IMG/VR virus record: IMGVR_UViG_3300037882_002265
Span: 1 to 28,599 of that record
DNA: 28,599 nucleotides
Reading direction: 5' to 3' (one strand)
Source: a virus
Shown here: positions 15,901-28,599 of the stretch, piece by piece
Layout of the letters: every line of letters starts with the position of its first letter
Position numbering within the stretch: position 1 is the first letter of the stretch
Made by a program: the position numbers and the translations under genes
The notes under the pieces: model-generated
The model's input: only the letters and a program-made list of their open reading frames with translations
Told to the model about the DNA's origin: nothing
Databases searched by the model: none

Positions 15901-17460
15901 ACAGAACTTTCAGAAACGGGCATGCGCCTCAGCCTGTTTGCCCGCTTCACCGAGGAGGCCAAGGGCCGTGGGTTGCGTGAACATGAGGCTTTGCTGGAAG
16001 GTGCATTTCAAGCGCGGGACTATATCGACTTTGACAGGCGCGGTTCACTGGTGACGCCTATCACACGGTTGATCCCATTTCTGAATGCGAATTTGCAGGG
16101 CCTTGATAAATTCACGCGGCAAATGGTGGTGCCGTTGTTTCGCGAGGGTGTGACGGTTTCTGAGCAGGCGCAACGGGCGCAAGCGGTGAAGGCTTGGGCG
16201 CGGGTTTCCGCTGTGATGGTGGGCACTTTGGCGCTGCATGCGGCCATGAGTGATGACGACACTTACAATGACATTGACCCTGACTTGAAGGCCCGCAACT
16301 GGATTTTTAAATGGGATGGTGCATGGGTTGTTATCCCCAAACCGTTTGAAGCCATGGCCTTTATCAACATGGGGCCTGCGGTGTTTGATGGTGTGCAGAA
16401 GAACGACCCGCGCTGGGGTGAAACAGTGAAGGCCAGTTTGCAAGCGGCCTTTCTGCCGCCTGATATTCTGGTTGGTAATCCGATCATTAAAACTGCAACC
16501 GAATATTACACGGGCAATGATTTGCGCACGGGCAACAAGATTATTCCGGTTGATCGGGAAGGGCTCGAACCGATGTTGCAATATGCTGATCGCACCTCTG
16601 CCGTGGCACGCGCCATGGGGCAGGCGGTGAATGTGCCACCTGTGGCGATTGACCAGTTGATTTTGAACTTCACCACCAGCTTGGGGCGCACGGCGCTTTC
16701 GCTTTCCGATTATGCGATGAGCGACAAGCCGATTGGCGGATGGGATGATTTTGTCATCACGTCCAGCTTCATCAAAGACGTGTCACGCAATGCGTCTTCG
16801 GTGCGGGCGTTTTGGGATTTGGTAGGATCCCGCAATGGTCAGCTTGAAGGCATGCGCAAAAGCTATGAAACGCTGTTGGAAAGTGGGGACGCGGTGGCGG
16901 CTTCCAACTTCTTCAATGCGCAAGACGCCAACACCAAATCATGGATTGCGCTTGGCAGCACCAAGGCCGAGGTGCGGCGCTTGCACCCGTTCACGCGGGC
17001 GCGTTCGGCTGTCACTGCCATCAATGATTTGAAGCGTGATATCATGCAGTCAAAGGTGGAAACCGCTGCTGGACCTGTAGAGGTTTCACGCCGTGACCGT
17101 GGAGCGGTTGACGACATTCTGAGTAAGCTTGCAATGACAGAGGCGCGTAACGCCTTGGTGATGATGGGTGTGCCGGGGTGGAAAGGCCGTGAGGTGATGG
17201 AAACCGCTGGCTATTACCGTGAGCTTGATGCGGTATCACCTGCGCTTTCCACGGCACTGGCTGACAGGTTCGCCACGGCCAAGGTGTTGCCCTTGGATGT
17301 GGTGGAAAAAGCATGGCCGGAAGTTGAAAAGCGCTTGTTGAAAGACGGCAGCGACATGTTGCAATCAGACTTTGTGGCGCGGGCGAAAGCGGCTGGCTAT
17401 GAGATGGACGGCAAGGCCATGAAGCGGAAGCCAAGGGCAAAGGTGAAGGGGTTAGAATAA
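12970..17460 (+). CDS. Giant internal virion/polyvalent protein with zincin motif and LPD38-like region
   Basis: A 1496-aa protein, by size and position the largest ejected protein. Residues 359-363 read HELGH in DVLAHELGHHVEQH, followed by EEGFAEY (residues 399-405), so a gluzincin-type metallopeptidase (HExxH plus downstream Glu) is likely. The C-terminal half (IKNFIRDQMQAF near residue 890, ITRLIPFLNANLQGLDKF near residue 1030) resembles the LPD38 'large polyvalent protein-associated' domain. Together they suggest a multidomain protein injected with DNA. It ends convergently with the minus-strand gene at 17452, overlapping by 9 bases. Confidence 0.85.
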   Translation: MNPFDELDFELTDAERASLENQPMPSFMERFRANEEQAYYTGTLAGGTKGQTTNQLDRDIAVDAYDSMPQWETPLDGLAALSGQLWGSLQSPENFTPLGPGAKVVEFAGVKTAPWMARFFAGAVDAGLVNATVDAVVQGAEIGGGDRESFDPKQTAIATGLGAAIGGAAGAVVGKGGQPAVKENLTVEAAPKAPDVVSSKIEGVTAKTDEPLPASNLGQETPTITKAVEPEVEPPALGDVLDVEARQVRGLPPRAVEAEPAPSLRAPAPVQGELASLAQGPRKGELKRDDAGVAATPEQILEPPQFTRLKDTADQLMTSLNAVAVRMGRIATPKADGIYKVGSGVIRLKKADDFDVLAHELGHHVEQHVGPSVKKLMADHDAELTPMAYEGADPKFLREEGFAEYMRVMVTNPAYAAQQAPQFDAAFRTMLAKEEPEVLKAIDTSAKAWRTWLEQPSTTAVASTIVSSEVGWFAPKLRKELKDLGLSGTIAERLQRFYGAAFDDLHPVNRAVRGLAKIYTENTGKVLDLKVSDDAYKLARLARGAYNAGQQDLMFGVAEYGSGKVVSSSLRDALVTATGKANALANFNSARLQQFGAYLWSRRALGEWERFDQGLIPNPPDKLTRGDHAQNVKDLEKAFPAFVDAAPMVHDFAQALWTKKRDAGLITHEQWDAGMAIKDYVPGLRAFDQVGDAAGGGGKRGGSMKGGLVKRFKGSTRDVLNPLESLMMDAHETANAIARNDVVRALDRLANVAGVGSGAIAERIPSHQMKATMVDVLEALHKAAKDNGVADADYIAMRDMVEGAIGDDVRTTLFRPAVINEKGEAIAFYRDGGELKALRLADGQFGKDMQRALSGMTRAEKQLFDTVSLPLAKAAAVARIGVVADIPFLIKNFIRDQMQAFIFYGSPVKTLGGSFKGMAAEVMGKDIARAYNVYGGIMGGANTATVRDARSNRSLNALARKGWAVNRFTSFKGFLEATELSETGMRLSLFARFTEEAKGRGLREHEALLEGAFQARDYIDFDRRGSLVTPITRLIPFLNANLQGLDKFTRQMVVPLFREGVTVSEQAQRAQAVKAWARVSAVMVGTLALHAAMSDDDTYNDIDPDLKARNWIFKWDGAWVVIPKPFEAMAFINMGPAVFDGVQKNDPRWGETVKASLQAAFLPPDILVGNPIIKTATEYYTGNDLRTGNKIIPVDREGLEPMLQYADRTSAVARAMGQAVNVPPVAIDQLILNFTTSLGRTALSLSDYAMSDKPIGGWDDFVITSSFIKDVSRNASSVRAFWDLVGSRNGQLEGMRKSYETLLESGDAVAASNFFNAQDANTKSWIALGSTKAEVRRLHPFTRARSAVTAINDLKRDIMQSKVETAAGPVEVSRRDRGAVDDILSKLAMTEARNALVMMGVPGWKGREVMETAGYYRELDAVSPALSTALADRFATAKVLPLDVVEKAWPEVEKRLLKDGSDMLQSDFVARAKAAGYEMDGKAMKRKPRAKVKGLE

Positions 17461-17823
17461 CCCGATTGAGATGCTTGGTGAGCGGCGCACAAAACCACCT
17501 GATGCAGCGCAAAGTGGATCAGGCAGGTAGTATTGAGGTCTGTCGTGGGTTAATCTTCGAGCTCTACTCGAGGTGGTCGCTTGTACTTTGTCTTTCCAAC
17601 TAAATATGTTGGAAATCATTTCGAGGCTTGAGTTGTCATCGACATAGTTTGCTTGAGCATTGCCTTTTAGAATGCAGTCGAATGTCGCGTAATAGTATCG
17701 AAAGCCATATTCAGTGCGCATCAGAACAGGTGTGTCTGATGGCAATGAGCTCGTTGATCTTGTCAAGTTTCCTACCAGAAAAGCACATCCAACAGCTGCG
17801 CCAATTGCTGGCCATTTCCACAT
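17452..17823 (-). CDS. Small membrane-anchored protein of unknown function (moron-like)
   Basis: A 123-aa product on the strand opposite all surrounding genes. From ATG 17823 it has an excellent ribosome-binding site (GGGGAAG, 4 nt spacing). Residues 1-20 (MWKWPAIGAAVGCAFLVGN) form a single membrane anchor or signal segment, followed by a mixed soluble domain (FRYYYATFDCILKG, MISNIFSWKDK). Local DNA is visibly more AT-rich than the neighbours. An oppositely oriented small gene inserted among late genes is typical of morons expressed in the lysogen, such as superinfection-exclusion proteins; that role is a guess. An upstream in-frame ATG at 17850 lacks a good site. No family is recognised. Confidence 0.6.
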   Translation of the reverse strand: MWKWPAIGAAVGCAFLVGNLTRSTSSLPSDTPVLMRTEYGFRYYYATFDCILKGNAQANYVDDNSSLEMISNIFSWKDKVQATTSSRARRLTHDRPQYYLPDPLCAASGGFVRRSPSISIGLF

Positions 17824-17927
17824 TTTTGCTTCCCCTTGCAATTGAAGCACAAATCATGGCACAAGTTGCCCGTGGCTGAAAACCACCAATTCTAGACCGA
17901 ACACCCGCCTCGAAAGTTTGTGGGAGG

Positions 17928-18025
17928 AACCACTATATGGCGGGGGTGTGACGGATAAGGCGGGAAACCGCCCCAAGAAGTCCGCCTGTGTCTAGACAGG
18001 TTTTCAACCCCCGCCACCAGTGGTG
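17928..18025 (+). ncRNA. C4-type antisense RNA upstream of antirepressor
   Basis: The sequence folds into a branched structure strongly resembling the C4 antisense RNA that controls antirepressor genes in P1-like phages. The closing stem TGGCGGGGGT (17938-17947) pairs with ACCCCCGCCA (18007-18016) and is extended by ACCACT/AGTGGT (17929-17934, 18019-18024). Inside are CGGA/TCCG (17952-17955, 17981-17984), hairpin GGCGG-GAAA-CCGCC (17959-17972) and hairpin CCTGT/ACAGG (17985-17989, 17996-18000). It lies 54 bases before the Bro gene start, exactly where C4 sits relative to ant. Identification is by structure and recall; no covariance model was run. Confidence 0.8.
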
Positions 18026-18060
18026 CCTGAAAAGCACGGCTGGTGGTGAACCGAAACCCT

Positions 18061-18078
18061 TCTAGAACGAGGTTCATC
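18061..18078 (+). promoter_or_regulatory. Bro gene translation start region, likely C4 target
   Basis: GAGG at 18069-18072 lies 6 nt before ATG 18079. Just upstream, TCTAGA (18061-18066) is complementary to the loop TCTAGA of the C4-like RNA (17991-17996). Pairing resumes over GAAACC (18053-18058) with GGTTTT (17999-18004). This gives 12 pairs out of 14 positions (one G-U), reaching close to the ribosome-binding site. Confidence 0.5.
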
Positions 18079-18957
18079 ATGAACGCGATTACTCCCTTTG
18101 TATTTGAAGACAATCTGGTTCGAACTATCTCACGGGAAGGCCTGCCATGGTTTATTGGCAAGGATGTTTGCCGTGCCTTGGACATTGGCAACACGTCTCA
18201 AGCCATGGAAAGGCTCGATCCTGATGAAAAGGGTATCACTACTAATGATACCCTTGGCGGTGAACAGACGGTGATCATCGTCTCAGAGGCGGGTGTGTAT
18301 CGCCTGATCTTCACCTCTCGCAAGCCGTCCGCCGAACGGTTCAAGCGCTGGCTGGCGCATGAGGTGTTGCCTGCACTGCGGAAAACCGGACGTTTTGCCA
18401 TGGAGGGTGCGCTGCAACATGAAGCCAACCCCTATGACATAACCTCGGAGGCCATTCCGGTGTTGCAAACCAAGCTGGCCATGGTGCGGGAAGCGCGCCA
18501 CCTGTTTGGGCATGAGCGGGCGCGGCAATTGTGGTCACAATTGAAACTGGCTGAGGTTGCCATCAACAGCCATTCCGGCAAGGGCGAGGCTTTGGACCTG
18601 TTGCAGTATATTCTGGATGGCAAGTTCATGGCTTACACCCTGCGTAGTTACCTTGACCCCGCTTTGGAAGGCGACCGCGCCAGCAACGACCACCTGAAAC
18701 AGTGTGGGCTGTGGGCGGAACCGGCCCGAGATGGCTTTCTGATTGCCAACCAGCACCCGTTCCTTGAGCAATTGCTGAAAGGCACAGACTGGGCCGATGG
18801 CAAATGGCAATGGGTGCTGCGGCGCTTGCCCGGTGCGGTGCCTGTGAAGCCCCGTTCGTGGGGTGGCAAGGTGAATTCCCGTGGGTTGTTTCTGCCGTGT
18901 TCGGTTTTGGACTTTGGCGAGCATGATATTGGCAAGAATTTTGAAGTGGTGAATTAG
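18079..18957 (+). CDS. Bro-N domain antirepressor-like protein
   Basis: The 292-aa product begins with a Bro-N (BRO family) DNA-binding domain. Hallmarks at residues about 5-110 are FVFEDNLVRTI, PWFIGKDVCRALDI, DEKGITTNDTLGG, VIIVSEAGVYRLIFTSRKPSAERFKRWLAHEVLPALRKTG. Proteins of this type serve as phage antirepressors that inactivate the prophage repressor and trigger induction. The C-terminal two thirds is a separate helical domain I do not recognise. The upstream C4-like RNA fits antisense control of ant-type genes. It sits within the late-gene region, as the immI region does in P22. Strong stems follow the stop. Confidence 0.85.
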   Translation: MNAITPFVFEDNLVRTISREGLPWFIGKDVCRALDIGNTSQAMERLDPDEKGITTNDTLGGEQTVIIVSEAGVYRLIFTSRKPSAERFKRWLAHEVLPALRKTGRFAMEGALQHEANPYDITSEAIPVLQTKLAMVREARHLFGHERARQLWSQLKLAEVAINSHSGKGEALDLLQYILDGKFMAYTLRSYLDPALEGDRASNDHLKQCGLWAEPARDGFLIANQHPFLEQLLKGTDWADGKWQWVLRRLPGAVPVKPRSWGGKVNSRGLFLPCSVLDFGEHDIGKNFEVVN

Positions 18958-18970
18958 TCTGTCAGGGGTG

Positions 18971-19032
18971 GCCCGCTTCCGCGGTTGCTGCGCAATCGCT
19001 AGGCGGGCTTGTTACCGGGAAACCCCGGTAAC
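18971..19032 (+). terminator. Two strong stem-loops after the Bro gene
   Basis: First stem: GCCCGC (18971-18976) with GCGGGC (19003-19008), enclosing an 8-bp hairpin GCGGTTGC/GCAATCGC (18981-18999). Second: GTTACCGGG (19011-19019) with CCCGGTAAC (19024-19032), loop AAAC. There is no classic U-tract, so termination would be partial or factor-aided. Alternatively they insulate or stabilise the transcript before the fibre gene. Confidence 0.5.
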
Positions 19033-19042
19033 GCGTTGACAA

Positions 19043-19076
19043 CTCATGATCAGGGTTATTCTGCCCTGATCATGAG
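19043..19076 (+). promoter_or_regulatory. Hairpin burying the first copy of the fibre start codon
   Basis: CTCATGATCAGGG (19043-19055) pairs perfectly over 13 bp with CCCTGATCATGAG (19064-19076), loop TTATTCTG. The ATG at 19072-19074 is inside the stem. In the downstream copy the left arm is replaced by unrelated bases, so the real fibre start at 19362 is free. Confidence 0.7.
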
Positions 19077-19134
19077 CGCAATATTCCCATTACCGCATTC
19101 CCCTAGGACTCGAGCCAAGGTGAAGGTGCAGTAA
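19072..19134 (+). pseudogene. Truncated duplicate of the tail-fibre N-terminus
   Basis: From ATG 19072 the first 13 codons are identical to the tail-fibre gene at 19362 (MSAIFPLPHSPRT). The frame then enters unrelated sequence and stops at 19134 after 20 codons. It is best read as a remnant from the duplication, either an older fibre start displaced by insertion or a leader peptide. Confidence 0.6.
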
Positions 19135-19361
19135 ATTTCCGGATCTAGGTTGCCAGTTATTCCCTTCCTTGGGCAACTCCGCGCGACCATTTCTGGTTTC
19201 TGCCATTTCAGACTTTATCAAGCGCATAGTTGGAAGGCTAGATGTTCTCGTGTCAATCCGGATGGAGAACCCACGCCCAAATTTTTTAGCTAACGTTTTG
19301 CTGGAAGGCAAGACGCGGTAACGCGTTGACGGGTATCTGACGGGGTTATTCTGCCCTGATC

Positions 19362-20702
19362 ATGAGCGCAATATTCCCATTACCGCATTCCCCTAGGACT
19401 TTTGGCCCTTACACCGCCACGGCGGGGCAGACTGACTTTGCCGCTTCGTTCGGCATTCAGGATGATGATGACGTTGAGGTGACACGCACACGTGGCGGGG
19501 CTGCAAGCATTCTGGTGCTGGATGTGGATTATGAGGTGATTTCGGCCAATGACCCCAACGGCTTTACCGTGCGGCTGCTGGCGGGTGCGCTTGCGGGGGA
19601 TATTATCTCTGGCCGTGGCCTTGCCGTGATCGAGCGCACGTCAAGCATTGTGCAGGCGGGGCAGTTCAACAGTCGCATTATGGACAGGGAGCTTGACCGT
19701 AGCCGCATTATCGACATGGAGTTGCGCCGCGATGTGGATGACTTGGTGCAGATGGATATTCAAAATGCCGTCACGCAAGTTGCTAATGACAGGGCGGCGG
19801 CTGAGGTTGCGGCGGCAGATGCCGAATTATCCGCCGCACAGGCTGACACGTCTGCTGACTTGGCACAAACCGAGCGCATCGCCGCGCAAGGTGCCGCTGC
19901 GGCTGCTGCCAATTTTGCAGGGGTTAGCTACGGTGTAAACCTTGGTTCTCCTGTTCTACATGCAACAAATTTCACGGTCAGTGCTTTAGATTACGGGCTG
20001 CTTCATATTCTTACGCCGTCACTCGGTCAAACGCTGGAAGTCACGTTACCGCCAGCCGCTAGCAATGTTGGGAAGGTTATCGCTTTTTCCGTTCCGCATG
20101 ACGTTTCAGGTTTAGTGCAATTCAAAGCAACGGCGGGTCAAGTTTCTAGTTTGATTTCTGACTATGCAACTGATGATTTTTTCATTTGGCAAAAGGAAAC
20201 GGTCACGTTGCTTGCACGGTCCGATCGTTGGTTGATTTTGGATTGGCGCAAAAACCCATTTTTCCTTCAAGCCGATTTGCCCGCAACAGATATTGATTTG
20301 ACGGCGGGCGCTAGTAATCTGCTCAACGGATGGGTAGGCGCAAACTATGCGGGGACTTACTTGCGGCATTCCGTTTTCGGCCTGTCTGGCGGCAATATCG
20401 TGTTGCCAAGGCGCGGCGGTTACTTGTTAGAGGTTGATTTATTCTGCAATTGGACGGGAACGCCGCCAACCTATCTTTATGTTGATATAGACACGGTGAC
20501 GGGCGGCATTCCGGGACGCGGTTATGCCGACTTTATTCAAGCTTCAAGTCCCACTCAGGCAAACATTAATTTTCGCAAAAGCTTAAACGCAAGCCGTACA
20601 GTAATTGTTAATCCGCGTGTCTATTGCGGCACCGGATCGACAACGCCCAGAATACTTGCCTCCGCTGCACAACCTCGCCTTCGCTTGACGGAGATGTTCT
20701 GA
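19362..20702 (+). CDS. Tail fibre protein with podovirus N-terminal anchor domain
   Basis: A 446-aa fibre. Residues 1-125 resemble the T7 gp17-type tail-attachment domain: FGPYTATAGQTDFAASFGIQ, then VLDVDYEVIS, IISGRGLAVIERTS and FNSRIMDRELDRSRI. A coiled-coil Ala/Asp-rich shaft follows (about 126-185), and then a beta-rich receptor-binding part. From codon about 187 (near base 19920) base and codon usage change markedly, so the distal part was probably acquired. No strong ribosome-binding site is visible before ATG 19362. The gene stop overlaps the next ATG (TGATG). Confidence 0.85.
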   Translation: MSAIFPLPHSPRTFGPYTATAGQTDFAASFGIQDDDDVEVTRTRGGAASILVLDVDYEVISANDPNGFTVRLLAGALAGDIISGRGLAVIERTSSIVQAGQFNSRIMDRELDRSRIIDMELRRDVDDLVQMDIQNAVTQVANDRAAAEVAAADAELSAAQADTSADLAQTERIAAQGAAAAAANFAGVSYGVNLGSPVLHATNFTVSALDYGLLHILTPSLGQTLEVTLPPAASNVGKVIAFSVPHDVSGLVQFKATAGQVSSLISDYATDDFFIWQKETVTLLARSDRWLILDWRKNPFFLQADLPATDIDLTAGASNLLNGWVGANYAGTYLRHSVFGLSGGNIVLPRRGGYLLEVDLFCNWTGTPPTYLYVDIDTVTGGIPGRGYADFIQASSPTQANINFRKSLNASRTVIVNPRVYCGTGSTTPRILASAAQPRLRLTEMF

Positions 20703-21721
20703 TGGGCGTTCCGTTTTGGCGGTTGTCGGAGCCTACTGCACCTACTACATGGGATAGCTACGCGCCAAACCATGCCTCGATTGATGTGAGCGATTATGCC
20801 GCAATTTCAGAGCGCAGTGCAACACGACTTCGCTTTATTCGCCCCGTAGCGTCGGTTGCGGGTTACGAGCATTGTTCCCCCGGCTCACGATTGCGCTTTG
20901 TCACAAACAGCGACTTCCTGCGTTTAAGCCTTTTTTGGAACGCGCTCGTCACACGTCTTGACACATTCAACAGCGTTGGTTCTGTTTTGGTGGACGGTGT
21001 TGAACACGCTCAATTCGGTTGCCCTGTTGCCGCAAACGTTACAGCGGCACACCAGCCTGTGTTTTCGCTTCCTACCGGAAGTAAAACCGTAGAGGTTATT
21101 TGGCCTTATGGTGCAGGGCTTGATTGCACGGGCGTTGAAGTTGCCCAAGGCTCAACGTTCACAGCCCCGGCGGCACGTCCAACGGCCAAGATTATCGGTG
21201 CTGGCGATAGCATCACTCACGGCTACACTGTGCCTCGCACTGTGCAATCCTATGTTTATAGTTTGGCAGTTGGAGAGGGCAAGCAGATCGTTAACATCGC
21301 TAATGGTGGAGATACCGCTGTTGCAGCAAATGGAAATGCCGTTCCATTGGGCTTAGGTGCGAATGACCGGATTTTGTATTTCATCGGCTTTAACAACTTC
21401 TACCCTCAAGTCAGTATTGGACCTTTCCAGACGCAAGTTGAAGGCTGGATTACAAATGCAAGAGCGAGAGCGCCAACCACGCCGATTTATGTCGGGATGC
21501 ACCGCACGTTAAAAGTAGCTGCCGACTATAGCGGCACGATTGAACCAGCAACGTATCGCGCCGCCGTTCAAGCAGCCGAAGCCGCTGCCGGAGATGCAAA
21601 CACGTTCTACGTTGATGGTCACGCCTTGGTGACTGCTGACCCGTCGAACTTCACAGACGGCATTCATTTTTCAAGTTTGGGTGCTGCTGCTGTTTCGACG
21701 GCTTTGGAAGGGGTAATATGA
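20702..21721 (+). CDS. SGNH/GDSL-type esterase, tail-associated
   Basis: The 339-aa product has the SGNH hydrolase blocks in order: GAGDSITHG with Ser170 as nucleophile, IGFNNF as a block III-like Asn motif, and DGIHFSS with Asp319 and His322. Residues 1-150 form a beta-rich N-terminal domain that may attach it to the fibre or bind polysaccharide. Phage proteins of this kind often deacetylate capsule or O-antigen; the substrate here is unknown. ATG 20702 overlaps the fibre stop. Base composition matches the distal fibre, so both came as one cassette. Confidence 0.8.
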   Translation: MGVPFWRLSEPTAPTTWDSYAPNHASIDVSDYAAISERSATRLRFIRPVASVAGYEHCSPGSRLRFVTNSDFLRLSLFWNALVTRLDTFNSVGSVLVDGVEHAQFGCPVAANVTAAHQPVFSLPTGSKTVEVIWPYGAGLDCTGVEVAQGSTFTAPAARPTAKIIGAGDSITHGYTVPRTVQSYVYSLAVGEGKQIVNIANGGDTAVAANGNAVPLGLGANDRILYFIGFNNFYPQVSIGPFQTQVEGWITNARARAPTTPIYVGMHRTLKVAADYSGTIEPATYRAAVQAAEAAAGDANTFYVDGHALVTADPSNFTDGIHFSSLGAAAVSTALEGVI

Positions 21722-22578
21722 TGACATTCAATCGCAAAATCTTATTCGCAGGATTAAAGGCCGCGCTAAATCCTACGGGTTTTGATGAACCGCAGGTGAC
21801 GGCCATTGCCGCCATTGTCTCGGAGTTTGAGCGACGCGCGCTGCCGGATGTGCGGTGGCTGGCTTATATTCTGGCAACCGTTTGGCATGAGGCGCGGTTT
21901 AAATCCGTGCGGGAAATTGGCCGTGGCAAGGGCAAGAAATATGGTGTGCCGCACAAGCTGACGGGCAAGATTTACTACGGCCGTGGGTTTTCACAAATCA
22001 CCTGGTATGACAACTATCTGAAATTTCGAAGCACCCTCAATCTGCCGCTGACCACCGACCCTGACATGGCGCTGCTGGTGCCTGTGGCCGTGGCGATTTT
22101 ATTTGAAGGCATGACCACGGGGGTGACGGCGAAAGACAGCTTCACCAAATATCAACTGCATGATTTTTTCAACGCCACGAAAGATGATCCGGTCATGGCG
22201 CGTTCAATCATCAATGGCCGTAAAAAAGGTGAACCGCTGCCCGATAAGGCCAAGCTGATTGCTGGCTATCACGACAAGATTTTGGCAGTGCTGCAAAAGG
22301 CAAAGCGTGATGGTGCGCCAGCTGCAAAGCCCGCAGCGATGAAACCTGTTGTTGCCCATGCTGAACAGCTTGAAGATGAGGTGATTACTGTTCCAGCCTC
22401 GCCAAGCATTGACGGCAGCGCTGCGGCTGGTGCTGCTGTTGTGGCGGGTAGTGGCATTGCTGCGGCTTCGGGCTTTCCGTGGGAGCGTGTGCTGCTGCTG
22501 GGTGGCTGTGCGTTAGCTTTGATTGCAATCATCGTTGTGGTTTTAAACTTCAGGAGTAAATCCCATGAACCCAAATAA
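21718..22578 (+). CDS. Endolysin, GH19-like, with C-terminal membrane helix
   Basis: Peptidoglycan-degrading lysis enzyme of 286 aa. The block LAYILATVWHEARF (catalytic Glu58 likely), REIGRGKGKKYG and YYGRGFSQITWYDNY (86-100) are typical of GH19/chitinase-like phage endolysins. Residues about 195-255 form an Ala/Pro-rich linker. Residues about 258-277 (VLLLGGCALALIAIIVVVLN) are a clear membrane helix ending in a basic tail, unusual at the C-terminus of an endolysin. No N-terminal signal is seen. It starts at ATG 21718 overlapping the previous stop; ATG 21721 is an alternative. Confidence 0.83.
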   Translation: MMTFNRKILFAGLKAALNPTGFDEPQVTAIAAIVSEFERRALPDVRWLAYILATVWHEARFKSVREIGRGKGKKYGVPHKLTGKIYYGRGFSQITWYDNYLKFRSTLNLPLTTDPDMALLVPVAVAILFEGMTTGVTAKDSFTKYQLHDFFNATKDDPVMARSIINGRKKGEPLPDKAKLIAGYHDKILAVLQKAKRDGAPAAKPAAMKPVVAHAEQLEDEVITVPASPSIDGSAAAGAAVVAGSGIAAASGFPWERVLLLGGCALALIAIIVVVLNFRSKSHEPK

Positions 22579-22786
22579 TACGCAAGCCGCATGGCAAAGC
22601 CGTGCCAATTTATTGGCGATGGTGGGCATTGTGGCGTTTTGGTTGCAGCGCCATTATGGCGTGAGCTTACCCGTCGAATTGCAGGGCATGGTGGTGGACC
22701 TTGTGCCGATGGCGATTACCGCCATTTGGATGGCCGTGATTTATTTCCGCAATGTGGCGCGGAAAGTGATTGATCGGTGGCTGTGA
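22565..22786 (+). CDS. Small membrane protein, holin-like
   Basis: A 73-aa protein with two hydrophobic segments (about residues 17-30 and 43-63, MVVDLVPMAITAIWMAVIYF). An AGGAG site precedes ATG 22565, which overlaps the endolysin gene by 14 bases. Position after an endolysin and size suggest a holin or lysis-accessory protein. The stop overlaps the following ATG. Confidence 0.7.
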   Translation: MNPNNTQAAWQSRANLLAMVGIVAFWLQRHYGVSLPVELQGMVVDLVPMAITAIWMAVIYFRNVARKVIDRWL

Positions 22787-23151
22787 TGTTTACTGCACTT
22801 CTCAGCTGGTTAACGGGTGGTGGCATTGCTGCCATTGGCAAGCAATTAAACGCGGCTTACCAAGCCAAGCTTGCTGCCAAAAATGCAACGGAAGCCTTGC
22901 AAGCTGATATGGACATTGCCCAGCTTTCAGCGCGGCAAGCTGTGTTGATTGCCGAGCAAGGCTCGTGGATGACACGCTGGATCAGGCCTGCATTTGCAGC
23001 GCCGTTTGTTGTTTACATCTGGAAAGTTGTGGTGTGGGACATGGTGCTTGGCTGGGGCGTTACCCGTCCGCTGGGCGACCAGATGAACTGGGTGTTGGTG
23101 ACTATGGTTGGCGCGTTCTTCTTGGCGCGACCATTCGAGAAAAGCAGATAG
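22786..23151 (+). CDS. Holin-like membrane protein (three-helix type)
   Basis: A 121-aa protein. A weakly hydrophobic N-terminus (MFTALLSWLTGGGIAAIG) is followed by an amphipathic charged middle, then two membrane segments RPAFAAPFVVYIWKVVVW and NWVLVTMVGAFFLA. Such proteins recur in alphaproteobacterial phages and GTAs as predicted three-helix holins. ATG 22786 overlaps the upstream stop (TGATG); GTG starts at 22777 and 22783 are also possible. It likely works with the endolysin and neighbouring membrane proteins. Confidence 0.7.
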   Translation: MFTALLSWLTGGGIAAIGKQLNAAYQAKLAAKNATEALQADMDIAQLSARQAVLIAEQGSWMTRWIRPAFAAPFVVYIWKVVVWDMVLGWGVTRPLGDQMNWVLVTMVGAFFLARPFEKSR

Positions 23152-23160
23152 GGGCGGCAC

Positions 23161-23406
23161 ATGACCGATCAAACGCGGGGGCAGTTTATGAAATTTTGGC
23201 CAGTGGTTGCCACGGCCATTGTGCTGCTGGCCTATGGTGTGGCGGGCGTTTCGTCCTATTCCACCATGGCTGCAAAAATGGAGCAGTTGGAAGAGTTTCG
23301 GGTTGAAGCCAAGGCCGACTTGAAAGAAGTGGCAAAAGACGTTTCAGAAATCAAAAGCGATATAAAGGTTTTGTTATCTCGTCAAACGCGAAAGGCTGGT
23401 GAGTAA
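23161..23406 (+). CDS. Membrane protein with coiled coil, possible inner-membrane spanin
   Basis: An 81-aa protein: short polar N-terminus, membrane helix at about residues 11-32 (FWPVVATAIVLLAYGVAGVSSY), then a charged coiled coil (residues 36-75). This is the topology of i-spanins or of XhlA-like lysis accessories, and the location in the lysis cluster agrees. No separate o-spanin lipoprotein was found. GGGG upstream of ATG 23161 is the ribosome-binding site. The stop overlaps the next gene (TAATG). Confidence 0.65.
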   Translation: MTDQTRGQFMKFWPVVATAIVLLAYGVAGVSSYSTMAAKMEQLEEFRVEAKADLKEVAKDVSEIKSDIKVLLSRQTRKAGE

Positions 23407-23726
23407 TGGCCGCATTCCTGAAAAAGAACCGCGCCACGCAACGGCTTTATGGCTTGCTGGAAGTGGGAACTGGCCCTGCTGATTTGACGGGAAAAACCCT
23501 TGTGGTTTATTTGGCCATGCCGGATGAAAGCAATGCGGTGGAAGTGGCAGCAACCATTATGCCGCAAACGGGCGGTGATGTGGGGCGCTATTACTTTGAT
23601 GTGACAAGCGCCAACATTGCAGCTGTGAGCGCCAATGCAGCGCAATTGCTGATCGTGGCCAATGTGTGGAATGCCGACAACAGCCGCTTTCGCAGTGGAG
23701 CCGGTTTGTTTGCGGTGAAACTGTGA
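23406..23726 (+). CDS. Small beta-domain virion protein (BppU-N-like)
   Basis: A 106-aa protein with the pattern [14 protein letters not shown], then a short strand, [12 protein letters not shown] and [12 protein letters not shown]. It resembles the small Ig-like or BppU N-terminal domains at baseplates and fibres. It is translationally coupled to the next gene (GTGA overlap), which encodes a collagen-like fibre, so a fibre-attachment role is plausible. Not certain. Confidence 0.65.
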
Positions 23727-24640
23727 CCGAACCCTTTGTCATAAACGCGGCCCGCGAAGCCCGCTTCACCTTTGGTGATGGTGTCGCTGATGCCACGTTC
23801 ACGGTGCAGGATGAAGACGGCGGCCTTGCCCTGATGGTGGGTGATGCCGGGGCCTTTAAGTTGGTGACGGAAAATTCCGGTGAACTGACAGTGATTGCAG
23901 AGGCCATGCAGGGTGCGCAGGGTGTTGCTGGGGTGGCTGGCCCTGCTGGTGCAGCGGGTGCCACTGGTCCGCAAGGGCCTGCTGGTGCAGATAGTACAGT
24001 GCCCGGCCCGCAAGGCCCTGCGGGTGCTGCTGGTGCCGCTGGTCCGCAAGGCATTCAAGGTGTTGCGGGGCCTCAAGGGCCTGCTGGTGCTGACAGCACA
24101 GTGCCCGGCCCACAAGGCCCTGCGGGTGCCGCTGGTCCGCAAGGCATTCAAGGTGTTGCAGGTCCTCAAGGGCCTGCTGGTGCAGATAGCACAGTGCCCG
24201 GCCCACAAGGTCCACAAGGCATTCAAGGCGTGGCTGGTCCGGCTGGTGCTGATGGTGCTGATGGCCAAGGTGTGCCCGCTGGTGGCACCACTGGGCAGGT
24301 TCTTAAAAAACTTTCGGCCACGGATTTTGACACGGCTTGGCAGGCCGACAACACGGGCGGTGGCGGTGGGGCGACGATCAACACGGTGGAAGTGAATTTC
24401 ACCACTTCGGCGCGGCAGCGGTTTTTTGATGTTGCCCATGTGGGTGCCACTATAGGGCAGAAAATTGTGGCTTCACCCAGCTTGAACATGCCTGCCGGGG
24501 TGGCGGAAGACGAATTGGAAATGGACCCGGTGTGTGTGGCGGGCCATTGCAAAACGGCCGGTCAAGTGCGGCTTCTGGTTTACTCGGCGCGTGGCGGGCT
24601 TCTCAGCGGCAAGCGCAACGTCAATTATATTTTGGTTTAG
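23723..24640 (+). CDS. Collagen-like tail fibre protein
   Basis: A 305-aa product from GTG 23723, overlapping the previous TGA. An N-terminal beta domain (residues 1-60) is followed by a Gly-X-Y collagen-like region (about residues 65-190) rich in Pro, Ala and Gln and interrupted by the block ADSTVP three times. Next is [21 protein letters not shown]-type sequence, common at junctions of phage fibres, and a C-terminal beta domain. The collagen region should form a trimeric rod. At DNA level the same region is a tandem repeat (see repeat entry), so length variation between relatives is likely. Confidence 0.83.
23976..24240 (+). repeat. Tandem DNA repeats coding the collagen-like rod
   Basis: Three near-identical units are spaced by 102 and 93 bases; the block CAGTGCCCGGCC recurs at 23997, 24099 and 24192. 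Differences between units are mostly silent or whole-triplet changes, so recombination here keeps the frame. Confidence 0.85.
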
Positions 24641-24651
24641 GAGAATGAGAC

Positions 24652-25320
24652 ATGGCAAAAATTGAAAGCATCAGTGGTGCCAACATGATGGAAGTGGACC
24701 CGACCTACAAGGCGGGGCGCGTGTCTATTTATCCACATGATGCGTTGGGCGCTTATCGCTATTCAGGCTTTACGGGCTTGTTGCCTGCGGCCCTTGCGGC
24801 AAATGCTGAAATTTTCCAGTTCCGGTGGACGGATAACGTCAACCTGTGTGTGCTGAAATTTTTGAAGGTGCGCTATGCTGTCATCACCGGCTTTACGGCG
24901 GCACAGGAATTGGCTTTCGATGTGCAGCCGTCAACAGCTTGGAGTGCCAGCGGCACGGGCGGCACAGCTATTGTGCCATCGACCGCCAACCTGATGCGGC
25001 GCACCAATTACCCGCAATCGAAAGTGGGGGATATGCGCATTGCCACCACGGCAGCGTTGGGTGTTGGCACCAAGACGTTGACAGGTGCTTCCATTCTCAC
25101 TGGCATGGGCAAAACGCTGGCGGCTGCGGCCACAGTGCAGGATGCGAGTTTTGAAAGCGTCATGGATTTAACCTCAACCTTTGATGATCCGATGATCTTT
25201 CAACAGAATGAAGGCTTCTCAGTGCGCAACAGTATTTTGTTTGGCGCGGCTGGCACGGTGCGAGCTTCGATTGCAGTGGGCTGGACTGAATACCTCGGCA
25301 CGGATTATCCGACGATGTGA
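24652..25320 (+). CDS. Probable virion-associated protein, unknown function
   Basis: A 222-aa strand-rich protein following the collagen-like fibre, with GGAGA before ATG 24652. Segments such as FQFRWTDNVNLCVLKFLKVRY, a Gly/Thr-rich middle and IFQQNEGFSVRNSILFG resemble proteins found at the end of tail-fibre clusters in prophages of alphaproteobacteria. No catalytic motif or membrane segment is visible. It ends the + strand block ahead of the terminator at 25405-25430. Confidence 0.7.
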   Translation: MAKIESISGANMMEVDPTYKAGRVSIYPHDALGAYRYSGFTGLLPAALAANAEIFQFRWTDNVNLCVLKFLKVRYAVITGFTAAQELAFDVQPSTAWSASGTGGTAIVPSTANLMRRTNYPQSKVGDMRIATTAALGVGTKTLTGASILTGMGKTLAAAATVQDASFESVMDLTSTFDDPMIFQQNEGFSVRNSILFGAAGTVRASIAVGWTEYLGTDYPTM

Positions 25321-25404
25321 TGAGTTTTGTGAGTGTGCGTATGTGTTGTCTTTGAGTGAACTGTTTCGTTCCACTCTGTGTTTTGATGCCTCCCTGTTTC
25401 AACT

Positions 25405-25430
25405 GGCCTCGCTTCGGCGGGGCCGTTTTT
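25405..25430 (+). terminator. Rho-independent terminator ending the late transcript
   Basis: GGCCTCGC (25405-25412) pairs with GCGGGGCC (25417-25424, one T-G wobble) across a TTCG loop, followed by G and five T. It lies 85 bases after the last late gene. Confidence 0.85.
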
Positions 25431-25493
25431 GTGGGGTTGTGTTTATTGATGAATGTTCGGAAGTGGTTCTGCGGTCCGGTCGCTACTCCGGAT

Positions 25494-25564
25494 GTGTTAT
25501 GTGGGGGCTTCACCCACAACCTGAACCAATGCCTTGGCCCTGCTCTCAATTGAGCTAATAACAT
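25494..25564 (-). pseudogene. Degenerate tRNA-like structure
   Basis: On the minus strand the 71 bases follow tRNA architecture piece by piece. The acceptor is ATGTTAT (25558-25564) with ATAACAC (25494-25500), 6 of 7 paired. TA linker bases and D-arm GCTC-AATTGA-GAGC come next. The anticodon stem GGGCC/GGTTC (two wobbles) has an 8-nt loop AAGGCATT. A 5-nt variable loop leads to T-arm GTGGG-TGAAGCC-CCCAC, abutting the acceptor. The T-loop lacks TTCRA, position 33 is not U, the D-loop has no GG and no CCA follows. A decayed tRNA or tRNA mimic is more likely than a working tRNA. Confidence 0.4.
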
Positions 25565-25699
25565 TCGACCTCAACTTACCATGCCGCCGATGCCTCAAAC
25601 GGAACAGATTTCTTCGGTTCGATTGCGTGTCTGCTTTCCACGCCGCCGCATTAACGAATATATTTAACGCCAAGAGACATAATGGCAAGGCAAATTTCC

Positions 25700-25743
25700 A
25701 AGGGTCTTGCGGTTGGCAAGCCTGCGCAAGCGGGGCCTTTTTT
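25700..25743 (+). terminator. Possible second terminator
   Basis: CTTGCG (25706-25711) pairs with CGCAAG (25725-25730), with an outer AAGG/CCTT pair across an unequal internal loop, and a run of six T ends at 25743. It may back up the terminator at 25405-25430 and shield the attachment region. Confidence 0.4.
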
Positions 25744-25786
25744 GTTCGAAACAAGTGGGGAACAAAGCATCTGATTTTCGGGTGCC

Positions 25787-25850
25787 CGTCCGACCATCGG
25801 ACGTTTTGCCGCCCGATTTTGCCCTATTTCGTCCGATTTGTTCTCGGATC
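25787..25850. repeat. Cluster of TCCGA repeats beside the attachment core
   Basis: CGTCCGA (25787-25793) and TCGGACG (25797-25803) form a perfect 7-bp inverted repeat. Further copies occur as GTCCGAT at 25831 and CTCGGAT near 25843. Four TCCGA/TCGGA units within about 60 bases next to the att core could be arm-type binding sites for integrase or an excisionase. This is suggestive only. Confidence 0.35.
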
Positions 25851-25875
25851 GTTTTAAGTAAGTTATTGAAAAGAT

Positions 25876-25921
25876 TGGTGAGCCCAGCGGGATTCGAACC
25901 CACGACCCTCTGATTAAAAGT
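25876..25921 (-). other. Attachment core: 3' part of tRNA-Lys(UUU)
   Basis: Read on the minus strand, this is a tRNA from the anticodon loop to CCA: CTTTTAA loop (anticodon TTT, plus-strand 25916-25918), TCAGA anticodon-stem 3' strand, variable loop, T-arm with the standard TTCGAAT loop, and GGGCTCACCA 3' end. No 5' half follows: the bases beyond 25921 do not fit the rest of a tRNA. Such a 3' fragment is what phages carry as att core when they integrate into tRNA genes. A 13-bp direct repeat TTGAAAAGATTGG flanks it (25866-25878 and 25935-25947). Confidence 0.85.
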
Positions 25922-25981
25922 TGGAGGTGAGCCGTTGAAAAGATTGGACAATCTGTTTTACCGGATGCGAGTTTGCGTGAA

Positions 25982-26341
25982 TTACGGTAATTTTCCGTTG
26001 TCGATATCGGAAATTTTGTTGCGCTTCAAAAACAGCATATCTTTGTCAGTGCGCATGGGAGTGAGTTGTGCGACTGAACCTTCAGTGTTGAAGATGCTGT
26101 CTTTCTGGCAATGCGGGCACGTGAAGATGGGGAAGTAGTGTTCATTGGCGTTGGCATAACCGTCTTCAAGCACTGGTACGCGGCCTTCAAGTGTGAAGGG
26201 GCCAGTGCTGTCAACGCTGGGGCCCAGGCAGGCCACCAGCATTTCGAGTGTGATGGTGGCGTCTGACATATCGTGATCGCAGTGAGGGCAGTCAGGGGTT
26301 TCACCCGCTGCGATGAGGCCGAGGCTAGGGCGAATGGGCAT
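25982..26341 (-). CDS. Small zinc-ribbon-like phage protein
   Basis: A 119-aa product from ATG 26341, two bases after the upstream stop. Two CPHC pairs (DCPHCDHD near residue 19 and TCPHCQKD near residue 85) suggest one zinc ribbon. The frame is open further upstream to 26377, but that would overlap the preceding gene. It is the last gene of the minus-strand integration operon and borders the att core. Function unknown; zinc binding is inferred from the Cys spacing only. Confidence 0.7.
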   Translation of the reverse strand: MPIRPSLGLIAAGETPDCPHCDHDMSDATITLEMLVACLGPSVDSTGPFTLEGRVPVLEDGYANANEHYFPIFTCPHCQKDSIFNTEGSVAQLTPMRTDKDMLFLKRNKISDIDNGKLP

Positions 26342-26343
26342 GA

Positions 26344-26631
26344 TCAGCAATCCGATGGGTCTGGCATAGCCATCCACATGGCCAGCAAGTGTTCATCACG
26401 CGGTTGCCAGTGTTCGGGGCGAGGTTTGCCGTCGATAGAATAGCGGTATGCTTCGATCATGTCATAGAGCGTGCCGCCTTCGCCGTAAGCATAGGCCTGC
26501 TTGGCTTTTTCCAGTTCTGGCAAGGCGTCATAGGCGGCGCGGGCGGCGTCTCTCTCTTCGGCTGTTGCTGGCGAAGGAAACCCCCAAGTATATTCATTAA
26601 TGCGAAATGCGCCAGGAAATGCGTTGCTCAT
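26344..26631 (-). CDS. Hypothetical phage protein
   Basis: A 95-aa acidic protein with a strong GGAGGA site 4 nt before ATG 26631. It includes a helical TAEERDAARAAYDALPELEKA and a C-terminal WQPRDEHLLAMWMAM. No known domain is recognised. The start overlaps the preceding stop (ATGA), so it is coupled to the gene upstream on the minus strand. Confidence 0.7.
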   Translation of the reverse strand: MSNAFPGAFRINEYTWGFPSPATAEERDAARAAYDALPELEKAKQAYAYGEGGTLYDMIEAYRYSIDGKPRPEHWQPRDEHLLAMWMAMPDPSDC

Positions 26632-26819
26632 GCTTCCTCCTCCTTAAGCTGGGTTCCGGCTTTCGCCGGAATGACGGGTGGGTGGCGGCGCTGCCACGCT
26701 TCTCCAAATTCGACTTGCGCGGCTTTTTTGGCTGCAAGCGCAGGGCTGATTTTGAGTTGAAGGGCCTTACGCAATTGCACACGTTGAAATCGCTCAACAA
26801 CTTTTTTCGTGGCCATCAT
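26628..26819 (-). CDS. Short basic protein with a repeat-derived C-terminus
   Basis: A 63-aa protein whose start (ATGATG) overlaps the integrase stop. Residues 1-43 are basic and helical (KKVVERFQRVQLRKALQLK). The end, PPVIPAKAGTQ, is the characteristic translation of a REP-like palindrome, so the original C-terminus has probably been replaced. The basic helix and position after an integrase leave an excisionase or DNA-binding role open, but this is speculation. Confidence 0.5.
   Translation of the reverse strand: MMATKKVVERFQRVQLRKALQLKISPALAAKKAAQVEFGEAWQRRHPPVIPAKAGTQLKEEEA
26646..26690. repeat. REP-like chromosomal palindrome inside a phage gene
   Basis: TTCCGGC (26654-26660) and GCCGGAA (26665-26671) flank TTTC, followed by the familiar ATGACGGGTGGGTGG. 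This matches the dispersed palindrome that translates as VIPAKAGTQ or as PAFAGMTG in many proteobacteria. It forms the end of the 63-aa gene. Confidence 0.65.
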
Positions 26820-28069
26820 CCCAGTTCCTCCTTATCGCCTGCCATGGCTGATATGATTGTGGCTTCTAGTAGGTTTACGGCTGCGTCGGCCTGCTGTTGA
26901 TCGGGGGCGACGTAGTGTTTCTTTTGCAGTTGCGCAAAGCTTGACGGGCTGTGGCCTGCCATTTTGGCCAGCACTTTGGGGTCGGTTCCCGCGTGTGCGG
27001 CCCATGTTTGGTTGGTGGCGCGCAGGGATTTTTCCAGCAGGGTTTTGCAGCTGGGCATGGTGATGGCTGCAATGTCACGGATCTGTGCGAAGACATGGCG
27101 GTAATGGTCGCCCTCTTTGGCCCATGGCCTTCCCGCCGTTTCGTCAATGAACAAGTGTGGCCAGTGCACGTTGGCTTTGGCACGGCGTTTCTTGGCGGCT
27201 TCTAGCCTCGTGGCCAGCATGGCGGGCTTGGTTAACGTGACCACCTTGCCGCGCTTAGACTGCTTCACGGTGATGTGGGTTTCGGTTTCGCTTTCAATGG
27301 TGATGACGAGGCGGTCAGACTGGCGTTGGCCGTGCAACACGCCGTAAATGAACATGTCGGCCAGTTCGGGGCGGTTGTTAGCGTCTGCTGTTGCCACCAT
27401 GTGCAGGAATTGTTCCACTGACCATGGGGCCAATGTGCCTTCCAAGGTTTCCATGCGGGTGAGTTGTTTGAAGATGAAGGGGTTTGCCCCTTGCTCCTTG
27501 GCGCCCAGCTTCGTCCACAGTGTTGACAGAAAGGCGCGGGTGGCGCGGGCTGACGCAAGGCCGGATTGCTCATGCACATTGTCGATGATGGCCTGCATGG
27601 CCGAGGGCGTGAACTGGTTGGCCGGTGCATCCCACATGTTGAGGCCCTTGGCGCGGGGTTCCTGTGCCAGCCGATCGCAGGCGGCTTTCACCCAATTCTT
27701 GTTGTGACGATAACCCCACACGGTTTTGGGTGATAGGCCCTTGGTGATGCGCTTGCCGATGGCTTCACCGCCGTTGAATTCCGGCAGGGTGAAGATGATT
27801 TCGCAGAGTTGGCCCAAGGTTTTGATGTGGGGTGAAGATGGGCCCCGTGTTTCCACGGGGTGACGGCTTTCGGCTGTACTGGCTTCAATCTTGCGGCTGA
27901 AAGCGTGGCATTCCTCGAAGCTGAACCATTCGCCATTGGGGTGTTTCAGGTCATAGCTTTTGTGGCCCAGCTTTCGCAGGCGGGCACCCGGTGCAAAGCG
28001 CGGGCGGAAGGTGCCATTGGCCTGTGGCCGCATGTCAATGTGGCGCGGTGCGATGCGATTTTTGATCAT
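26816..28069 (-). CDS. int: Tyrosine recombinase (phage integrase)
   Basis: Catalyses site-specific integration at the tRNA-Lys core. In the 417-aa form starting at ATG 28069, the catalytic residues are Arg249 (HGQRQSD), a following Lys region (KQSKRGK), Arg350 (KSLRATNQTW), His373 (AGH) and nucleophile Tyr386 (KKHYVAP). The usual His of HxxR is replaced, since the block reads SLR. The N-terminal half is the core-binding/arm-binding portion. An alternative start at ATG 28204 adds 45 residues but lacks a ribosome-binding site, whereas ATG 28069 has AGGGGAAG. That site lies in an inverted repeat (28076-28122). Confidence 0.9.
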   Translation of the reverse strand: MIKNRIAPRHIDMRPQANGTFRPRFAPGARLRKLGHKSYDLKHPNGEWFSFEECHAFSRKIEASTAESRHPVETRGPSSPHIKTLGQLCEIIFTLPEFNGGEAIGKRITKGLSPKTVWGYRHNKNWVKAACDRLAQEPRAKGLNMWDAPANQFTPSAMQAIIDNVHEQSGLASARATRAFLSTLWTKLGAKEQGANPFIFKQLTRMETLEGTLAPWSVEQFLHMVATADANNRPELADMFIYGVLHGQRQSDRLVITIESETETHITVKQSKRGKVVTLTKPAMLATRLEAAKKRRAKANVHWPHLFIDETAGRPWAKEGDHYRHVFAQIRDIAAITMPSCKTLLEKSLRATNQTWAAHAGTDPKVLAKMAGHSPSSFAQLQKKHYVAPDQQQADAAVNLLEATIISAMAGDKEELG

Positions 28070-28075
28070 CGAAGT

Positions 28076-28122
28076 CTTCCCCTGTTCCGGTGAGTGTACG
28101 CCAGCAACAAGAACAGGGGAAG
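28076..28122 (-). promoter_or_regulatory. 12-bp inverted repeat covering the integrase ribosome-binding site
   Basis: CTTCCCCTGTTC (28076-28087) and GAACAGGGGAAG (28111-28122) are perfect complements with a 23-nt loop. In the minus-strand mRNA the proximal arm contains the AGGGGAAG that serves the start at 28069, so the stem would hide it. As DNA it could also be an operator. Confidence 0.65.
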
Positions 28123-28207
28123 TGTGGCCACCACGGGGAGACGAAACGCCAAGCTGGGGAGGAAGCAGACGGCGCTTTTGCAGGGTGGTGGCGGTGTGGG
28201 TCATTGG

Positions 28208-28432
28208 TTATCGCCGCTTCCAACGGCGCACTTTGTGCGGGTGTGCGATGGCGGGTCGATGGCTTGAAATGTAATTTTGAACGCGGCCTGCACGATTGAA
28301 TGTGACGAGTGTGAAGCGCATGCCATCTGGCAGCAGTTTGGTGATGCTGACGCCCAAGGCTTGCAGCAATGGCATGTGTGCCGCGTCTTGTGGAATGGCA
28401 GGTGGTTGTTTCAGTCTGGTTTCGCGTGGCAT
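28208..28432 (-). CDS. Small conserved phage protein
   Basis: A 74-aa protein with an AGGAAAGAG site before ATG 28432. The pattern LPDGMRFTLVTFNRAGRVQNYIS resembles a short protein common in alphaproteobacterial phages (LP.G..F.LL.F..G....YIS). Its function is unknown. It lies between a glycine-rich protein and the integrase on the same strand, 138 bases ahead of the preferred integrase start. Confidence 0.7.
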   Translation of the reverse strand: MPRETRLKQPPAIPQDAAHMPLLQALGVSITKLLPDGMRFTLVTFNRAGRVQNYISSHRPAIAHPHKVRRWKRR

Positions 28433-28451
28433 GATTTTCTCTTTCCTGAAG

Positions 28452-28484
28452 TGCCAGCGAATGGCTCGATGCCATTCGCTGGCA
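28452..28484 (-). promoter_or_regulatory. 14-bp perfect hairpin between minus-strand genes
   Basis: TGCCAGCGAATGGC (28452-28465) pairs with GCCATTCGCTGGCA (28471-28484), loop TCGAT. No T-run follows on either strand. It sits 8 bases after the glycine-rich gene stop and about 19 bases before the next ATG, so partial termination or mRNA processing are both possible. Confidence 0.6.
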
Positions 28485-28492
28485 GATGGTTG

Positions 28493-28599
28493 TTAGCCGT
28501 AGCCGGAGCCGTCGCCGTAGCCGTAGCCGGAGCCGTCGCCGTAGCCGGAGCCGTCGCCGTAGCCGTCGCCGTAGCCGGAGCCGTCGCCGTAGCCGTAGC
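28493..28599 (-). CDS. C-terminus of a Gly-Tyr-Gly-Asp repeat protein (partial)
   Basis: Runs off the right edge; only the last 35 residues are visible, ending at TAA 28493-28495. Every second residue is Gly, alternating with Tyr, Asp and Ser (GYGDGSGYGDG). The coding DNA is a tandem array built from 6-base steps in 12- to 24-base blocks. Similar Gly-rich tails occur in phage proteins of unknown role. The N-terminal domain is outside the window, so function cannot be judged. Confidence 0.7.
   Translation of the reverse strand, partial: YGYGDGSGYGDGYGDGSGYGDGSGYGYGDGSGYG

Follow-up and report, generated by a model that had tools for sequence, protein, structure and literature searches.

The 28,599-base virus sequence analyzed here, referred to throughout as the window, very likely encodes, as the preliminary description had proposed, a C4-like antisense RNA that controls a Bro-type antirepressor gene, bro. 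On this reading, the RNA belongs to a temperate phage, is co-transcribed with bro, lies just upstream of it, and blocks its ribosome binding. The evidence consists of the fold, compensatory changes in its stems, the order of the parts, antisense and target boxes that vary together across the family, and a position upstream of Bro that is shared with true (Rfam) C4 RNAs. By analogy with P1, we infer processing of the RNA, its pairing in vivo, the translational block, and an antirepressor activity of the Bro protein. The RNA is, with high likelihood, real and functional. It is an undescribed subtype of the C4 type, and its nearest Rfam family is sRNA-Xcc1. More broadly, C4, sRNA-Xcc1, and the window RNA probably represent subtypes of a single plug-in antisense module with the layout a1-b1-RNA-a2-b2-gene, which precedes at least six unrelated antirepressor families as well as symE. 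In front of symE, the module would serve as a type I antitoxin that replaces SymR. On this view, sRNA-Xcc1 would repress its neighboring gene locally instead of being a dedicated virulence regulator.

Gene context, fold and comparison with known RNAs

The source record is a linear virus of 28,599 bases. It encodes a terminase, a head-tail adaptor, a major head protein, tail proteins, a holin, an endolysin, and an integrase (PHROG assignments), and this combination of an integrase with structural and lysis genes indicates a temperate phage. No phage repressor was recognized among the ORFs scanned (window positions 17628-28599) in this linear and possibly incomplete record. A DUF7694 protein is encoded after the terminase (1910-2188), and a GDSL-like lipase/acylhydrolase domain is found near the lysis and tail-fibre genes (20624-21721). 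The window also contains an exact 58-nt direct repeat (19053-19110 and 19343-19400); its second copy holds the start of the ORF 19362-20702, so that a duplicate of this gene start seems to have arisen 290 bases upstream.

The RNA structure is located between the gene for an LPD38 protein, which ends at position 17460, and the Bro-N gene, whose start codon (ATG 18079) lies 53 bases past position 18025. The product of the latter gene scores above the curated cut-off for the Bro-N domain (Pfam ID PF02498; 83.6 versus 25.6 bits). The stretch from 17928 to 18025 forms a closed, branched fold with an outer stem, a 10-bp closing stem, a composite P2 made of two helices, and a P3 hairpin (Table 1). 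Its energy is -51.0 kcal/mol, compared with -31.5 +/- 3.7 kcal/mol for shuffled sequences (z = -5.3; 0 of 200 shuffles equally stable), and the two arms of the closing stem (17938-17947 and 18007-18016) complement each other at all 10 positions (100%), so that the previously noticed branched fold with a perfect closing stem is real. The outermost stem (17929-17934 with 18019-18024) falls outside the RNase P-type core, and its conservation is not apparent by eye in the flanks of the relatives; for these reasons, the RNA proper is placed at approximately 17939-18018. Its predicted 5' end is an RNase P-type cut at AT/GG (17938/17939, the slash marking the cut), judging from the sequence, and its 3' end would read ...CCCGCCACC; the AT/GG start and the GCCACC end are common to the window RNA and the P1 C4. 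Because target boxes are found at 17876-17897 and 18027-18067, the functional element is wider than 17928-18025 on both sides. The boundaries 17928-18025 proposed earlier thus describe the structure correctly, but not the extent of the RNA or of the element.

Table 1. Features of the RNA locus and of the phage, in window coordinates
Feature	Position	Strand	Basis or description
a1 target box CTGAAAACC	17876..17884	+	8-nt perfect complement of a'
b1 target box TTCTAGAC	17890..17897	+	7-nt perfect complement of b'
P1 closing stem, 5' arm	17938..17947	+	Fold; pairs with 18007-18016
C4-like antisense RNA core	17939..18018	+	Fold; model search; ends like P1 C4
Composite P2	17952..17984	+	Outer helix 17952-17956/17980-17984, inner hairpin 17959-17963/17968-17972, internal loop between
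P3 hairpin with antisense box b'	17985..18000	+	Fold
Antisense box b' GTCTAGAC	17990..17997	+	Loop of P3 hairpin
Antisense box a' GGTTTTCA	17999..18006	+	P3-P1 linker; complementary to a1 (8 nt) and a2 (6 nt)
P1 closing stem, 3' arm	18007..18016	+	Fold, complementarity, two-sided changes
a2 target box CTGAAAA	18027..18033	+	Complement of a'; loop of predicted hairpin 18014-18046
b2 target box TTCTAGAA, core TCTAGA 18061-18066	18060..18067	+	Complement of b'; 2 nt 5' of Shine-Dalgarno sequence
Shine-Dalgarno sequence GAGG of bro	18069..18072	+	Sequence
Bro-N antirepressor gene, 292 aa	18079..18957	+	Pfam Bro-N; PHROG anti-repressor Ant, E = 2.9e-49
Integrase	26816..28204	-	PHROG integrase, E = 8e-10

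Searches of the whole window against Rfam returned no family at its gathering cut-off. The C4 model (RF01695, cut-off 45 bits) has no match in the window either at gathering or at E <= 10, and scores 66.7, 57.1, and 56.5 bits in the positive controls L009, L006, and L036, respectively. The window RNA is therefore not a member of Rfam C4 as defined, and the earlier statement that it matches the C4 family is not supported. The only Rfam signal at E <= 10 between positions 17600 and 18300 is sRNA-Xcc1 (RF02221; E = 0.05), whose 25.4 bits against a cut-off of 53 do not amount to membership by score. The alignment to RF02221 is full-length (model positions 1-87), with several P2 pairs broken and the two-part P2, P3, and P1 fold present. 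A nucleotide similarity search of a phage collection with this region of the window gave no match. In its architecture, the window RNA has the three-stem fold of C4, with a long closing P1, a P2, and a P3, and its functional layout: a' and b' complementary to a2 and b2, with b2 at the ribosome-binding site, a1 and b1 upstream, and an antirepressor gene (Bro-N/Ant) directly downstream.

In the P1 record, the annotated order is putative a1 and b1 sites, C4, target sites a2 and b2, icd, and ant. By sequence, the P1 b' box TCACTAAC is complementary to b2 GTTAGTGA, which lies at the Shine-Dalgarno site, and the a' box CTGTCAA is complementary to a2 TTGACAG. In the C4 RNAs of P1 and P7, b' occludes ribosome-binding sites, a' determines target specificity, and processing is by RNase P at GG (PMC5320573). 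The order in the window is a1, b1, the RNA with b' and a', a2, b2, GAGG, and ATG 18079. Like C4, the window RNA is thus found upstream of an antirepressor gene in the order a1-b1-RNA-a2-b2-gene; b' is in the P3 hairpin loop, a' is the linker before the closing stem, the ends are AT/GG...GCCACC, a2 is in a hairpin loop, and b2 is at the Shine-Dalgarno site. It differs from C4 in lacking a match to RF01695, in its longer two-part P2 with an internal loop, in its own a' and b' sequences, and in being followed directly by bro, with no icd-like leader gene.

Several other RNAs are comparable. The Xanthomonas sRNA-Xcc1 shares with the window RNA the two-part P2, also present in its Rfam model, followed by P3 and a short linker. 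It has been described as a virulence-regulated, integron-borne sRNA and not as an antirepressor regulator (PMC2996969). The group 1 sRNAs of Acinetobacter baumannii are C4-like and extend the type beyond P1 and P7, as reported for gammaproteobacteria (PMC5320573). The same applies to the gammaproteobacterial c4-a1b1 RNA (Weinberg 2010, PMC2864571), named for its upstream boxes and likened here by its description. The sar RNA of phage P22 resembles the proposed window RNA as a small RNA that blocks antirepressor translation, but is described simply as pairing with the ant mRNA, without the two-box branched C4 design (PMC12197685).

Relatives, stem covariation and box pairing

Viral and genome contigs supplied relatives of the Bro protein; a scan for two short patterns covered viral contigs. 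RNA of the same kind is found in at least 10 phages or prophages, mostly upstream of Bro (L001/L060, L003, L005/L061, L008/L057, L010/L056, L015, and L035) and also upstream of other phage genes (L054, L055, and L058). The same slot before homologous Bro genes is occupied by Rfam C4 RNAs above the cut-off in L006, L009, L036, and L067 (the Pseudovibrio contig of L041) and, before a related Bro, by an above-cut-off sRNA-Xcc1 in L016. Three RNA subtypes, window-type, Rfam C4, and sRNA-Xcc1, thus share one position before homologous Bro genes. Among the other candidates, L059 was a chance pattern match within a coding region, and the weak model matches L047 and L064 were judged spurious.

A joint MAFFT alignment of all subtypes put P1 one base off, so the covariance model was built from one subtype with a hand-set structure, and the rest were fitted to it. 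This model, R1, comprises five type-2 RNAs and leaves the window out. Among the five sequences, 7 of 22 pairs change on both sides and 98% of cells are paired; the slid controls are all far lower. With filters off, the best place for R1 in the whole window is 17937-18015 (20.4 bits, E = 0.0046; next best, 0.94). When 11 sequences are fitted to R1, in an alignment that leans towards the structure, two-sided changes are found in 12 of 22 pairs and covariation is 0.436, versus 0.146 for shuffled alignments; they affect 5 of 7 modelled P1 pairs and all 3 modelled P3 pairs. A search with the Rfam C4 model and covariation in relatives had both been suggested beforehand as checks on the RNA; the former gave no significant match, but compensatory changes are clearly present in both the 5- and the 11-sequence sets.

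The antisense and target boxes vary in concert. In four near-identical RNAs, the P3 loop b' and b2 change together, the b'/b2 pairs being TCTAGA/TCTAGA in the window, GTTTGTA/TACAAAC in L058, TGTTCGTG/CACGAACA in L060, and TCTCTGA/TCAGAGA in L061. Targets likewise change with the antisense boxes in the more distant RNAs of L035 (CTCTGAC/GTCAGAG and GTTCTTTAG/CTAAAGAAC), L015 (TCCTACGT/ACGTAGGA for b'/b2 and TTTTCTAG/CTAGAAAA), and L004 (TCCAGTGC/GCACTGGA). The b2 box is at or adjoins the Shine-Dalgarno sequence in L058, L060, L061, L035, L015, and P1, and the a2 hairpin is predicted in the window and most relatives. Upstream, the b1 sequence tracks the b' loop across relatives, and the position of a1, which in the window lies in the loop of a small hairpin (GTGG-CTGAAAA-CCAC, 17872-17886), matches in L058, L060, and L061. 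For a box test across 17 loci, including three Rfam C4 RNAs, P1, and one sRNA-Xcc1, each RNA was scored by adding the lengths of the two best complementarities that its antisense arm forms with the flank. Own flanks score higher than those of other loci, both downstream (14.8 versus 10.4) and upstream (15.0 versus 10.8), and in a permutation test over the 17 loci, 0 of 20,000 permutations reach the matched sum.

Within the window alone, dinucleotide shuffles give a match as good as a2 (6 nt) in 22% of cases, as b2 (6 nt) in 3.5%, as a1 (8 nt) in 1.3%, and as b1 (7 nt) in 0.9%. The a2 and b2 matches of the window itself are thus weak and those of a1 and b1 moderate, so that the case for its boxes rests on their position and on the family; the b box of the window is also palindromic, which makes a chance match easier.

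The RNA of L058, near-identical to that of the window, precedes a different gene without a Pfam match (MNTITLQDLTVMNGEPRVLDL...), which suggests a modular exchange of RNAs and target genes. In L001/L060 and in L015, a small leader ORF separates the RNA from bro, at the place that icd takes in P1. A different branched fold, GAGCTNCATCGGC...GCCGATGGAG-ATG, occupies the last ~100 nt before the Bro start codon in L011, L012, and L014 (also in L037 and L039). The closing stem of this fold pairs the Shine-Dalgarno site itself, and its loop bases may pair with an upstream GAATGCG/GAACGCG-like box.

Proposed mechanism and competing readings

In a lysogen, cleavage of the leader, probably by RNase P at AT/GG, would release an ~80-nt RNA (17939-18018). 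Base pairing would then join its a' linker, which is single-stranded, to the a2 hairpin loop, and its P3 loop, b', to b2 adjoining the Shine-Dalgarno site. Ribosome binding to bro would be blocked, no antirepressor would be made, and lysogeny and immunity would persist. With too little of the RNA, in an incoming phage or after an inducing event, Bro would be made and the repressor inactivated. This scheme predicts RNA-set immunity groups among phages with nearly the same RNA but differing b' loops. No convincing promoter was found upstream of the window RNA, the promoter and terminator scan giving nothing above chance.

It is unlikely, though the longer matches of a1 and b1 compared with a2 and b2 in the window would fit it, that the main target of this C4-like RNA is not bro but either the antirepressor of another phage, acted upon in trans as immunity against relatives, or the upstream a1/b1 sites, as in orphan copies that have a1/b1 alone. 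Many chromosomal relatives also have upstream boxes without downstream ones (26/32 versus 8/32 of the R2 loci described below). Control of bro is favored by the location of b2 beside its Shine-Dalgarno sequence and of a2 in a hairpin loop, at a spacing shared with relatives whose a2/b2 boxes are perfect.

The element might instead act in cis only, as a leader in which the RNA fold and the a2/b2 region are mutually exclusive and open or shut the ribosome-binding site of bro, no small RNA being released. This reading, which we consider quite improbable, draws on the behavior of the longer leader: folded alone (17885-18110), it adopts an alternative structure that competes with the C4-like fold of the isolated RNA, and the CCACC end of P1 can pair within the a2 hairpin (18014-18046) instead. 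The related-looking fold in L011, L012, and L014 also pairs the Shine-Dalgarno site directly. However, the ends of the window RNA match those of P1 C4, which is processed by RNase P (PMC5320573); its relative sRNA-Xcc1 shows up on Northern blots as a discrete RNA of ~100 nt (PMC2996969); and the upstream a1/b1 copies would be superfluous in a simple cis switch.

An intergenic terminator or processing stem without a regulatory role, or chance G+C-rich folding, is highly improbable: the stem is indeed very G+C-rich and the box matches of the window in isolation are weak, but no T tract follows the stem, no terminator is called there on the + strand, and a z of -5.3, compensatory changes, and co-changing boxes would be unexpected.

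Distribution and the proposed link to sRNA-Xcc1 and symE

Rfam C4 RNAs above the cut-off are found in 11 of 199 genomes of the alphaproteobacterial order that includes Pseudovibrio, so that C4 in alphaproteobacteria is not new with this window. Of the range extension suggested in the preliminary description, the RNA subtype is new; Rfam C4 as such was already present in that order and before Bro in alphaproteobacterial phages. The combined model R2 matches 26 of 385 alphaproteobacterial genomes, and RF02221 matches 37 of 289 genomes at the class level (6 above the cut-off) and 58 of 399 at the phylum level (40 above the cut-off). Places matched by both R2 and RF02221 are found in the alphaproteobacterial genomes G207, G215, G224, G319, G323, G401, and G478.

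Boxes were scored as present at a summed length of >= 14, with the expectation taken from mismatched flanks. By this measure, upstream boxes are found in 26/32 R2 loci (1.9 expected), 9/10 class-level RF02221 loci (1.3 expected), 24/29 phylum-level RF02221 loci (2.0 expected), and 15/18 loci of a further order (0.35 expected). Downstream boxes are found in 8/32, 3/10, 12/29, and 11/18 of these, respectively. Eleven chromosomal loci (L078-L080, L084, L085, L092, L093, L096, L098, L108, and L110) keep a1/b1 and have no matching downstream boxes; an antirepressor is not seen directly behind most of them. A scan of 53 downstream ORFs identified 7 Bro-N, 6 Phage_pRha, 4 P22_AR_N, 3 KilA-N, 2 ORF6N, 1 AntA, 1 ANT, and 2 SymE domains, and one protein can count repeatedly.

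On these sequence patterns, the C4-type antisense group should include sRNA-Xcc1. In Rfam, C4 belongs to clan CL00128 and RF02221 to none, and no link of sRNA-Xcc1 to C4 or to antirepressors was found in the literature searched, most subscription journals lying outside it. A sequence-level rule, two short antisense boxes plus two matching target pairs, would predict the direct target of many bacterial and phage RNAs. By this rule, sRNA-Xcc1, so far catalogued as linked to virulence and assigned many predicted targets, would join the C4 immunity scheme and act on the antirepressor gene or symE next to it.

In Xanthomonas integrons, the most widespread cassette carries sRNA-Xcc1 directly upstream of symE, and a divergent regulatory mechanism, none being named, has been suggested for it (PMC12444791). 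An sRNA-Xcc1 RNA lies directly upstream of symE in L133, with all four boxes (TTAAACA/CTATCAG downstream and TTAAACAC/CTATCAG upstream), in L113 (1501-1836), with b2 at the Shine-Dalgarno site, in L191, with a shorter b2, and in L188; boxes are partly decayed in L151 and L188. The arrangement in L113, L133, L188, and L191 suggests a type I toxin-antitoxin system in which a C4-like antitoxin replaces SymR. In genome G739, an RF02221 RNA stands before each of three symE genes; a symR-like sequence, scoring below the Rfam cut-off, takes its place at other symE loci, among them a fourth one in G739. A plasmid search with an sRNA-Xcc1/symE stretch gave only five partial matches.

The 2.3-Mb genome G958 contains ten sRNA-Xcc1-type RNAs (L146 and L152-L160). 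Box pairs flank nearly all of them on either side, and a small ORF of 106 to 148 aa follows in most cases; from the sequence, the group looks like a set of parallel RNA switches.
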